Shown: positions 34,405 through 37,015 of the stretch, one piece after another
Position numbering within the stretch: the first letter of the stretch is position 1
How the letters are laid out: each line of letters begins with the position of its first letter
Source of the DNA: Fibrobacter succinogenes
GTDB taxonomy: Bacteria > Fibrobacterota > Fibrobacteria > Fibrobacterales > Fibrobacteraceae
Assembly: GCA_902761355.1 (NCBI GenBank)
Contig: CACWJY010000007.1
Coordinates: 1 to 64,000, forward strand
Direction: 5' to 3'
DNA: 64,000 nt
Notes under the pieces: generated by a model
Told to the model about the DNA's origin: nothing
Databases searched by the model: none
What the model saw: the letters and a program-made list of their open reading frames with translations, nothing else
Program-made: the position numbers and the translations under genes

Positions 34405-34630
34405 GAAAAATGATGTTAAGAAAAAAGGACTCTCGCCTGTTGCCAGTCGAAAGTCCAAAGGATGGGATTGGGTGTTCCTTGAATATACCTAAAAAAACGG
34501 CCTTGCGTATCACTTTAAAATTCAAAAGTGTTCTCGAATTGTTCTATTTACGAAAATTAACGCAATTTTGGCCTGATGTAAGCAAAAAAGGTGTTCCCAA
34601 AAAATAAAGAAAAAAGTATATTTACAAGTG

Positions 34631-35482
34631 ATGAACGTATACGCCTATTATAACTACCGGAAGTACCTGCAGGACTATTACGACTACCGCAAGTCCGTGC
34701 AGCGTTATTTCTCGTACCGCTCCTTCGCCAAGAAGGCGGGGTACTCTTCGTCTGGTTTTTATCTAGACCTGGTCCGCGGGCGCAAGTCTCTGACGCCGCA
34801 GATGTTGCCGAAGTTTATTGCGGCACTCGGCCTTAACGAAAAGGAAGGCCGCTACTTCACCTTGATGGTGGACTTTACCCATGCGACTACACCGGCTTCT
34901 AAGCAGGCTATCTTTGAACAGATGTCCGCTCTTTTGCCTAGTGCCATCAAGTCTTTGACCAAGAGTCAGCAGGAATACTACAGCAAGTGGTATTACGTGG
35001 CTGTGCGCGAAGCGTTGTCCGTTCTCAATATAAGCCCCAAGAATATTCAGGAATTGGCGTTGTTCCTGAATCCGCGTATCACGCTTCCGCAGGCAAAGCA
35101 GGCCATTCAGTTGCTTTTGTCGCTGCAACTTATTGAGCTTGACGAAAATGGCTTTTATCGTTCTGTAAATAAGGCTGTCTTTAGCGGTTCTGAGATAGCT
35201 CCTGTATTCGTTCATCAGTTCCAAAAGCAAATGATTGATCTTGGCAAAGATGCCTTGGATCATTACAGCACCGAACGTAGAAACGTGTCTTGCATGACCA
35301 TGAGTGTTTCTGCCGAGGGCCTTGAAAGAATTATTGCTAAGATTGATTTGTTCCGTAAAGAAGTTGTTGACATTATCCGTTCCGACGAGGGTGAAACGAT
35401 GGTCTGCCAAATGAACATCCAGTTTTTCCCGTTAAGCAAAGAAAAGGTGGATCTCCCACCCGAGGTCGAGGAGGAAAAATGA
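34631..35482 (+). CDS. TIGR02147-type Fibrobacter regulator (DUF4423-like)
   Basis: A protein of 283 residues. The N-terminus (YAYYNYRKYLQDYYDYRKSVQRYFSYRSFAKKAGYSS) and middle (YSKWYYVAVREAL, LFLNPRITLPQAKQAIQLLLSLQLIELDENGFY) match the Fibrobacter paralogous family TIGR02147. It combines an N-terminal helix-turn-helix (SYRSFAKKAGYSSSGFYLDLVRGRKSLTP) with a winged-helix-like region. Probably a transcription regulator. Its last codons overlap the start of a lipoprotein gene (ATGA). TATATTTA lies 6 bases before the ATG. A GTG at 34628 is an alternative start. Confidence 0.85.
   Translation: MNVYAYYNYRKYLQDYYDYRKSVQRYFSYRSFAKKAGYSSSGFYLDLVRGRKSLTPQMLPKFIAALGLNEKEGRYFTLMVDFTHATTPASKQAIFEQMSALLPSAIKSLTKSQQEYYSKWYYVAVREALSVLNISPKNIQELALFLNPRITLPQAKQAIQLLLSLQLIELDENGFYRSVNKAVFSGSEIAPVFVHQFQKQMIDLGKDALDHYSTERRNVSCMTMSVSAEGLERIIAKIDLFRKEVVDIIRSDEGETMVCQMNIQFFPLSKEKVDLPPEVEEEK
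35468..35474 (+). promoter_or_regulatory. Strong Shine-Dalgarno for the lipoprotein inside the regulator gene
   Basis: GAGGAGG ends four bases before the ATG at 35479. It lies within the end of the upstream regulator gene and gives the downstream lipoprotein its own ribosome site. Confidence 0.75.
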
Positions 35483-36858
35483 AAAACTTAAAAACCGCAT
35501 TTGCCTTGTTGGCAGCAGCTGCATTAGCATTTGTGGCTTGCAGCAACGACAAAACTGCCGGTACCGTGACCGATACGGGCAATACGATTGCCGTTACGGG
35601 TGTCGTTCACCGTGTAGATGGAAGTCCTGCGGCTGATGCCGTGGTGCGTATGGCCCGTATGGCTGTTTACGACAGTGTTTTGCATATCCCCGAAAAGGTC
35701 GAAGTAAAGACTGATTCTGATGGCGTGTACGCATTTGATTCGGTTCTGTCTGACACTTTCCAGCTGGCGGTTATTGATACGTCGGCGGTTGAAGTGTTTT
35801 ACTTGCCGAGAACGACCTTAGATGCTAAGGCGTTTGATAGTATCACGCTTTCTAAGGCTGCTGTGATTAATAGCGTGCTTCGTTTTGAAGAAGTTGAGGA
35901 TTCTGCGGTTTCTGTGGGTGGGCATTTTATTACTTGCCTTTCGGGAACGTTGTTCTGCAATGACGTATATGCTGCAGATAGCTTCTTTATGCTGATTCCT
36001 GAAGGGGATTGGTCTTTAGAGCTGTTCCCCAGTGATTCTATGACGGTGGCCCGTATGCAGTCCTTGGGATTTGCAGATAGCCTTATTTACCGTACCTTGA
36101 AACTTGGGAAAGTCAAGTCGGGTGATTCTATAAGCCCGGGCCCAGTTGTGTGGAGTACGACGACTAGTGTTGATACCTTGATTAAGGAAGCTAAGAATGT
36201 GGCCCGTCTTTCGGGAACGGTTCTTTGCAAGAATGAAAAGCCGTGTGTCAATGTCGAAGTGATGACGATCCGCGACATTTACGGGTTCAATTTTGTTGAA
36301 GGGGATTCCATGGAGTTTGTGGCTCAGACCACTACTGATAGTCTTGGACGTTGGTGGCTGCCTATACCGGATTCTTTGCCGGGTGATTCCTTTAGGATTG
36401 AGTTCCGCAAGTTGCAGGACGATATTGTGACTCAGGTGGGGGTGTCTCGCTACCTGACTGCTAGCGAAATCAAGGACTTGAAGGATACTCTGAAACTAGA
36501 TTCTGTCAAGTTGTCTCTCCCCTCGAAACTGATTAGTGGTGTAAATCTGGTCCTTGACCGAGAAGATACGACACAGTCTAATAACTGCATGGTTAATAGT
36601 GTGGTTGTGGGTATCAAGGGTACGTCTCATTTTGTTCGGGATGCGACCTGTGACAACCTGATGCTTTCGGATCTGCCTGAAGGGGGACAGCAAGTGGTCC
36701 TTTATTCTGGAGTGCCCAAAGCGATTGCCAAAATGAGGGAATCGGAAATCCCGATGCAATATTTTGTGACTTTGACGCCGGTTACTCTGCATGGAGGAGA
36801 CGTGCAAAAGGTCCAATGGATGACTTACACCCCACCTAATCAAAATATTTTTAAATAA
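35479..36858 (+). CDS. Lipoprotein with carboxypeptidase-regulatory-like beta domains
   Basis: A protein of 459 residues. The lipobox is LAFVAC (Cys21). The body carries at least two CarboxypepD_reg-like segments: TGVVHRVDGSPAADAVVRM...TDSDGVYAFDSV (residues about 35-95) and SGTVLCKNEKPCVNVEV...TTDSLGRWWLPIP (about 245-300). These are beta-sandwich domains of surface proteins. Its start overlaps the end of the TIGR02147 regulator gene, so the two are translated together. The pairing suggests the regulator senses or controls the envelope, but that is inference. Confidence 0.78.
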   Translation: MKNLKTAFALLAAAALAFVACSNDKTAGTVTDTGNTIAVTGVVHRVDGSPAADAVVRMARMAVYDSVLHIPEKVEVKTDSDGVYAFDSVLSDTFQLAVIDTSAVEVFYLPRTTLDAKAFDSITLSKAAVINSVLRFEEVEDSAVSVGGHFITCLSGTLFCNDVYAADSFFMLIPEGDWSLELFPSDSMTVARMQSLGFADSLIYRTLKLGKVKSGDSISPGPVVWSTTTSVDTLIKEAKNVARLSGTVLCKNEKPCVNVEVMTIRDIYGFNFVEGDSMEFVAQTTTDSLGRWWLPIPDSLPGDSFRIEFRKLQDDIVTQVGVSRYLTASEIKDLKDTLKLDSVKLSLPSKLISGVNLVLDREDTTQSNNCMVNSVVVGIKGTSHFVRDATCDNLMLSDLPEGGQQVVLYSGVPKAIAKMRESEIPMQYFVTLTPVTLHGGDVQKVQWMTYTPPNQNIFK

Positions 36859-36902: not shown

Positions 36903-36973
36903 TGAGCTATGGTGTAATGGTAGCACAACAGATTCTGACTCTGTTTGTCTAGGTTCGAATCCTGGTAGCTCAA
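36903..36973 (+). tRNA. tRNA-Gln (anticodon CTG)
   Basis: It folds as a cloverleaf. The acceptor stem TGAGCTA / TAGCTCA pairs perfectly. The D arm has AATGGTA. The anticodon stem ACAGA / TCTGT encloses TTCTGAC, with anticodon CTG. The T arm is CTAGG-TTCGAAT-CCTGG. The discriminator base is A and no CCA is encoded. It reads CAG. A terminator follows directly, so it is a single-gene unit. Confidence 0.95.
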
Positions 36974-36978
36974 CGAAG

Positions 36979-37015
36979 ACTCTTTGCTCATACCCCTGAG
37001 CAGAGAGTTTTTTTT
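36979..37015 (+). terminator. Rho-independent terminator after tRNA-Gln
   Basis: A stem of 12 bases (ACTCTTTGCTCA / TGAGCAGAGAGT, one mismatch) with a small loop is followed by seven or more T residues. It starts 6 bases after the tRNA end. Confidence 0.92.

Follow-up and report, generated by a model that had tools for sequence, protein, structure and literature searches.

The regulator and lipoprotein genes at 34631-36858 of the window (the whole 64,000-nucleotide stretch of Fibrobacter succinogenes DNA analyzed here) probably form one copy of a self-regulated two-gene cassette, which exists in many copies in the Fibrobacterota and seems to have private operators in many Fibrobacter paralogues. 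The near one-to-one pairing of the two genes, the motif shared by the lipoproteins, the conserved promoter boxes and the covariation between recognition helix and box are read from the sequences themselves, and from them we infer the binding, its sign, the ligand and the surface display. In the proposed mechanism, the regulator would bind boxes in its own promoter and so set transcription of both genes. In many Fibrobacter paralogues the box would have its own sequence, read by the recognition helix of the cognate regulator, and cassettes should for that reason not cross-talk.

In the window, the TIGR02147/DUF4423 regulator gene (34631-35482, forward strand), identified by profile scores and predicted structure, is followed on the same strand by a gene (35479-36858) for a lipoprotein of 459 aa, composed of a signal peptide, a lipobox Cys21, a linker with the motif and tandem beta-sandwich domains. 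As the first-pass annotation had noticed, the ATG of the lipoprotein (35479-35481) overlaps the stop codon of the regulator (35480-35482) in an ATGA (35479-35482), and a GAGGAGG lies inside the regulator gene (35468-35474); we place the latter, 4 nt before the ATG, as the Shine-Dalgarno site of the lipoprotein. An in-frame GTG is found one codon 5' of this ATG; orthologues start at the ATG (MNVYAYYNYR). The regulator ends in ATGA at 45 of 64 orthologous loci, and a GGAGG-like site is present at 44 of 64. Since ATGA overlaps are described as frequent among bacteria (PMC6728339), the overlap of the window is ordinary on its own; its recurrence across loci is not. A tRNA-Gln (CTG) gene lies 44 nt past the lipoprotein stop (window region 36903-37012). 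No terminator-like stem was found between this stop and the tRNA gene, and one stands directly 3' of the tRNA gene, which may share its transcript with the lipoprotein. As 58 of 63 loci have a tRNA-Gln gene no more than 400 nt away from the orthologous lipoprotein, the window-type pair occupies a fixed place.

The window regulator is a clear member of TIGR02147, scoring 352.1 bits (cut-off 50) over model positions 2-271 of 272. Pfam DUF4423 (PF14394) matched residues 105-268 with 101 bits (gathering cut-off 30), and HTH_3 (PF01381) reached 14 bits, under its gathering cut-off of 23. The AlphaFold model (mean pLDDT 82.9, pTM 0.54) consists of an N-terminal HigA/XRE-like HTH (residues ~5-89), a winged helix (~111-184) and a C-terminal part of low confidence. 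The HTH superposes on HigA (9chl_A; 76 residues at 2.5 A, Z 8.0), and the winged helix resembles members of the MarR, ArsR and MecI families (5yi1; Z 7.9, 2.0 A over 58 residues), Z values that are also common by chance.

HigA/XRE-type proteins bind their own promoters. The window regulator is like them in that its N-terminal HTH models on HigA, and unlike them in that its partner is a lipoprotein and no toxin, and in that a second, winged-helix domain follows the HTH. A toxin-antitoxin reading of the pair and a pheromone-receptor reading of the regulator were both considered and set aside: the likeness to HigA does not extend beyond the HTH, and what the regulator is paired with is a lipoprotein.

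Foldseek with the regulator model gave no match at E 0.001 or better; its list includes, among weak matches, Rgg2 and chains of PrgX. PrgX binds peptide pheromones. Given these chains and the close coupling of the two genes, one may imagine that the regulator binds its partner before export, or the signal peptide cleaved from it, in a PrgX-like manner and so reports export load. We consider this very improbable: PrgX is matched weakly (E about 0.1 or worse, probability no higher than 0.23), paralogues appear to have diverged in their signal peptides, and, while RRNPP peptide receptors (PrgX, Rgg) are defined by a repeat-type peptide-binding domain after the HTH, the middle domain of the window regulator (111-184) models as a winged helix. 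TIGR02147 (Fsuc_second)/DUF4423 is a model of paralogues without a function, and no published function was found for it in the literature searched, nor were a lipoprotein partner, an N-terminal motif or cognate operators.

The lipoprotein neighbour, on whose recurrence the first-pass annotation had staked its proposal, is present at nearly every TIGR02147 locus. In the genome that contains the window (G000, a draft with 89.6% completeness), 19 TIGR02147 genes were found. At 18 of them a same-strand lipoprotein gene starts close to the regulator stop, and the 19th has a divergent one 120 bp upstream. Pairing was then counted across Fibrobacterota genomes. Besides this genome, the loci read were all 28 of G005, 30 of the 34 matches of G020, 30 of 33 of G008, 30 of 35 of G004, loci sampled from further Fibrobacter and from other classes, and, of 80 named records, the 79 that were readable. 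The final tally covers 261 of 262 loci, L268 being excluded because its strand geometry was not resolved. A downstream lipobox with the motif at 8 bits or more was found at 228 of the 261, which are not independent events, since the motif profile was trained on most loci outside G000, G004 and G008 and the locus sets partly overlap in orthologues. The rest comprise 2 divergent partners, 10 with the motif at 5-8 bits, 11 with a lipobox and the motif below 5 bits, and 10 without a lipobox by pattern. By genome, the motif reached at least 8 bits at 19/19 loci in G000, 27/28 in G005, 20/30 in G008, 22/29 in G004 and 26/30 in G020. Inspected by eye, L054, L093, L121, L211 and L212 do possess the Cys and the motif, and L116, L132, L134, L138, L218 and L262 look like true exceptions, the last being of a type whose orthologues have a divergent partner. 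At L132 (G014) and L134 (G013), the product of the gene coupled to the regulator is short and hydrophobic and does not look like a typical lipoprotein, and a lipoprotein-like ORF lies farther downstream.

The reverse search gave the same picture. When two whole genomes were searched with a profile built on the window lipoprotein, there were 8 matches in G000 and 9 in G005, and by coordinates 8/8 and 8/9 of these (16/17) adjoin TIGR02147 genes; the ninth G005 match is weak (E 0.005), internal and without the N-terminal part. Relatives of the window lipoprotein thus sit almost exclusively beside TIGR02147 genes, in line with the earlier idea of a regulator family tied to a lipoprotein. The suggestion that the pair is specific to Fibrobacter did not hold: TIGR02147 is present in 156 of the 167 Fibrobacterota genomes examined, and Bdellovibrio is listed with DUF4423 (PMC12546842). 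Among these 167, the genomes that lack the family are the 8 of one genus, the 2 of another and a single further one. The two genera (g21 and g31; G027-G034, G049 and G050), which lack it in all 10 genomes, have relatives with many copies, which suggests loss or late spread.

By its signal peptide and lipobox Cys, the product of the second gene is a predicted lipoprotein, which would be exposed at the surface. The signal peptide has 20 residues with a hydrophobic stretch and ends in LAFVA, followed by the lipid Cys at residue 21. After this Cys comes the signature motif TAGTVTDTGNTIA (residues 26-38; 35554-35592, forward strand), recognized by its invariant residues and by a specificity test. 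G28, T29, T31, T33 and N35 are invariant in 42 aligned orthologues of the window lipoprotein, and across partners the motif reads roughly [VT]AG[GT]..[TS]E..N. A motif profile trained without G000 matched, at 8 bits or more, 18/18 partners of this genome, 2/90 control lipoproteins and 0/90 shuffles. Both control matches were TIGR02147 partners themselves, and so the motif is found in 0/88 true controls. The profile covers ~32 residues, and in some partners it therefore takes in the start of the next domain.

Beyond the motif, the partners differ: within the own genome, 17 of 171 pairs of partners could be aligned. Their modules include pectate lyase/beta-helix, CBM_4_9, LamG, FISUMP and CarboxypepD_reg, and 3 of the 17 partners scanned had no Pfam match at E 0.01. 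In the window lipoprotein, residues 25-35 are predicted to be disordered (pLDDT <50) and are followed by beta-sandwich domains, for which Foldseek ranked multidomain surface adhesins and pilins first, at low TM-score. CarboxypepD_reg (PF13620) scored 30.6 bits on the window protein (gathering cut-off 32.3) and was matched at E 0.01 or better in 41 of the 42 aligned orthologues. In F. succinogenes S85, four carboxypeptidase-like-domain lipoproteins are reported with negative changes in the envelope proteome of cellulose-grown cells (PMC6851124); these may include TIGR02147 partners.

The lipoprotein export signal of the Bacteroidota is described as K-(D/E)2 or Q-A-(D/E)2 near the mature N-terminus (PMC5080379). 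The window lipoprotein, the one protein compared, begins in its mature form with CSNDKTAGTVTDTGN and lacks this signal. The partner motif resembles it in being short and close to the mature N-terminus of a lipoprotein, and differs in its sequence and in that, among the lipoproteins tested, only TIGR02147 partners have it.

That a conserved motif sits in a tether predicted to be disordered, and is found in none of the 88 controls, could also mean that signals run from the outside in, as the first-pass annotation had suggested: the lipoprotein would sense a surface ligand and signal to the regulator, its post-lipobox motif docking on a common envelope transducer. The pairing, near-obligate in both directions, and C-terminal modules such as CBM, LamG, pectate lyase and FISUMP agree with this. 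However, the regulator is predicted to be cytoplasmic, the pair comes without a transmembrane third component, and the motif could equally be a sorting signal, so that we judge such a route improbable. The shared motif is compatible with a further partner; the evidence points to a regulator that acts on its own promoter.

In the window promoter, TGTTC occurs four times (at 34473, 34529, 34540 and 34592), always in one orientation on the forward strand. The distal box 1 (GGGTGTTCC, 34473-34477) is conserved in orthologous promoters, as are boxes 2 and 3, which form a tandem direct repeat GTGTTCTCGAATTGTTC (34528-34544), 11 bp apart. The GTGTTCNCNNADTGTTC of this tandem has a single exact place in the genome (0 mismatches). 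Box 4 (GTGTTC, 34591-34596), the proximal one, keeps its position in orthologues and overlaps the -35-like hexamer of a promoter-like TTCCCA-17-TATATT (34594-34622, found by consensus scan), whose -10 ends 8 nt before the regulator ATG. The TGTTC blocks are the conserved part of 65 orthologous promoters. Of 40 orthologous promoters left after redundancy was removed, 38 have at least three TGTTC (shuffled sequences: mean 0.04, max 1), 36 have the last one between -41 and -35 relative to the ATG, and only 3 contain a TGTTC in the reverse orientation.

These boxes are reminiscent of lambda CII-type promoters, which have direct repeats around the -35. Like them, the window has boxes in the same orientation, one helical turn apart, with a box over a weak -35; unlike them, it has boxes, putative binding sites, also ~60 and ~120 bp upstream.

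A large Fibrobacter subgroup has another arrangement, in which the box TGTNNNAT lies immediately upstream of a near-consensus -35/-10. In a search for an inverted pair with a direct copy 66-77 bp downstream, whose spacing limits were set after examples had been seen, such a triple operator was found in 23 of 120 Fibrobacter promoters, 12 of them exact (20 two-base-block shuffles: mean 0.6, max 2, exact 0). The inverted pair lies near -133/-121 and the copy 71-72 bp downstream, beside the -35. Chance probably accounts for a few of the 23, whose cores are A/T-rich or whose positions are unusual. The cores, such as GTATAAT, GTATAGT, GTAGCAT, GTTGCAT, GTTTCAT, GTGTTAT, GTATCAT, GTATTCC and ATGTTCT, differ between regulators.

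This geometry bears on the sign of regulation. A one-component repressor could hold the operon down through a loop that joins the proximal half-site to the distal inverted pair, until a cytoplasmic metabolite releases it; the ~71 bp between the sites would suit a loop on one helix face, and many promoters have a near-consensus -35/-10. Yet the proximal half-site lies upstream of the -35 and covers neither the -10 nor the start, and in the window family it sits over a poor -35 (TTCCCA), which better fits activation. We regard looping repression as a minority possibility for the family, one that also fits the near-consensus promoters. Overall, activation appears somewhat likelier than repression, because the boxes lie just upstream of the -35 or over a poor -35.

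To return to the self-regulated cassette, further support comes from comparing regulators with their own boxes, under rules that were framed after the promoters had been looked at. A regulator's own core recurred upstream in 20 of 28 promoters, compared to a permuted mean of 6.83 (max 15 in 5000), and 8 of the 28 cores had no such recurrence. Among 20 distinct helix/box pairs, box base 4 covaried with helix position 2 (0/2000 permutations), base 5 with position 5 (p=0.0025) and base 6 with position 3 (p=0.0015). Helix divergence and core divergence still correlated once the remainder of the regulator had been controlled for (partial correlation 0.53, p=0.0005, n=28). When 67 windows along the protein were compared in this respect, the two that ranked highest contained helix residues. 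From these patterns, TIGR02147 regulators look autoregulatory, and many Fibrobacter pairs seem to have a private control site, which would amount to dozens of separately wired surface-protein switches per genome.

The exact ATGNTAC-N5-GTANCAT occurs at two places in the own genome, both before TIGR02147 genes, and at three one-mismatch places elsewhere. In G004, G005 and G008, a looser palindrome occurs at 9 places, 5 at TIGR02147 promoters and 4 elsewhere, one of the latter perfect, compared to 5 places for a reversed control pattern. At L317 (G008:C2:139983-140001) we observed a perfect operator-like palindrome, ATGCCAC-N5-GTGGCAT, in a 3-kb locus without a TIGR02147 gene.

A general repeated-word test flagged 32 of 105 Fibrobacter promoters vs 3 of 64 controls; an earlier test, limited to direct repeats, was weaker (11/47 at p<0.05 vs 1/63 controls). 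The repeated-word test flagged 0 of 30 promoters in G020, a distant genome; for other classes the count was 3 of 28, which is near background. From these counts, many family members have no detectable operator, and the operator claim holds for part of Fibrobacter and not for the phylum. It could also be that the genes are simply co-transcribed, TIGR02147 proteins acting elsewhere while the lipoproteins hitchhike. The literature, where we found no function for the family, leaves room for this, but the phylum-wide pairing, the private boxes at many promoters and the helix/box covariation all speak against it, and we give it hardly any credence.

The two products of the cassette would be made in unequal amounts. 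The -10-like element ends 7-9 nt ahead of the regulator ATG in 29 of 40 window orthologues, and most often 6-8 nt before it across Fibrobacter loci; because it ends so near the ATG, the regulator message is probably leaderless. In Fibrobacter loci, a strong Shine-Dalgarno (5 of 6 or better) precedes 17 of 105 regulators vs 64 of 101 lipoproteins. This suggests that one message yields more lipoprotein than regulator: a leaderless start with little Shine-Dalgarno help would give little regulator, and the strong internal site much lipoprotein. The lipoprotein would then display a stalk or a carbohydrate-related module on the envelope. As for the signal sensed by each regulator, a small cytoplasmic ligand is our default guess.

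Bacteroidota have many loci per genome that combine a regulator (SusR, HTCS, ECF/anti-sigma) with surface glycan lipoproteins. The cassettes are like these loci in forming many parallel units, each with its own regulator and surface lipoprotein, and unlike them in that a one-component regulator is coupled to a single lipoprotein. A bolder extension, which we put forward as speculative and rather unlikely, is that Fibrobacterota genomes contain up to dozens of positively autoregulated switches, mutually orthogonal, in each of which a diverging recognition helix reads a separate operator and a different lipoprotein is driven. The common motif would dock onto an envelope partner used by all of them, which would report display or ligand binding, and the whole array would run a combinatorial, possibly bistable surface-coat program in place of Sus-type sensing.

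For each TIGR02147 regulator, its own promoter can now be named as the predicted target and a lipoprotein, often with carbohydrate-related modules, as the predicted output; for part of Fibrobacter a predicted site sequence is available as well. A large paralogue family for which we found no published function thus becomes testable. If true, dozens of private switches would answer how Fibrobacter picks its envelope proteins on plant fibre, and the study of protein-DNA recognition and of orthogonal regulators would gain a natural data set in the helix-to-box correspondence among paralogues.

Some loci of the own genome are worth recording for their layout. Contig C22 carries three TIGR02147-lipoprotein cassettes in ~20 kb (41-61 kb; L023 and L024), two of them in tandem and with FISUMP-type lipoproteins. 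At L025 and L028 (contigs C12 and C46), a Ser-rich second lipoprotein ORF follows immediately after the partner on the same strand.
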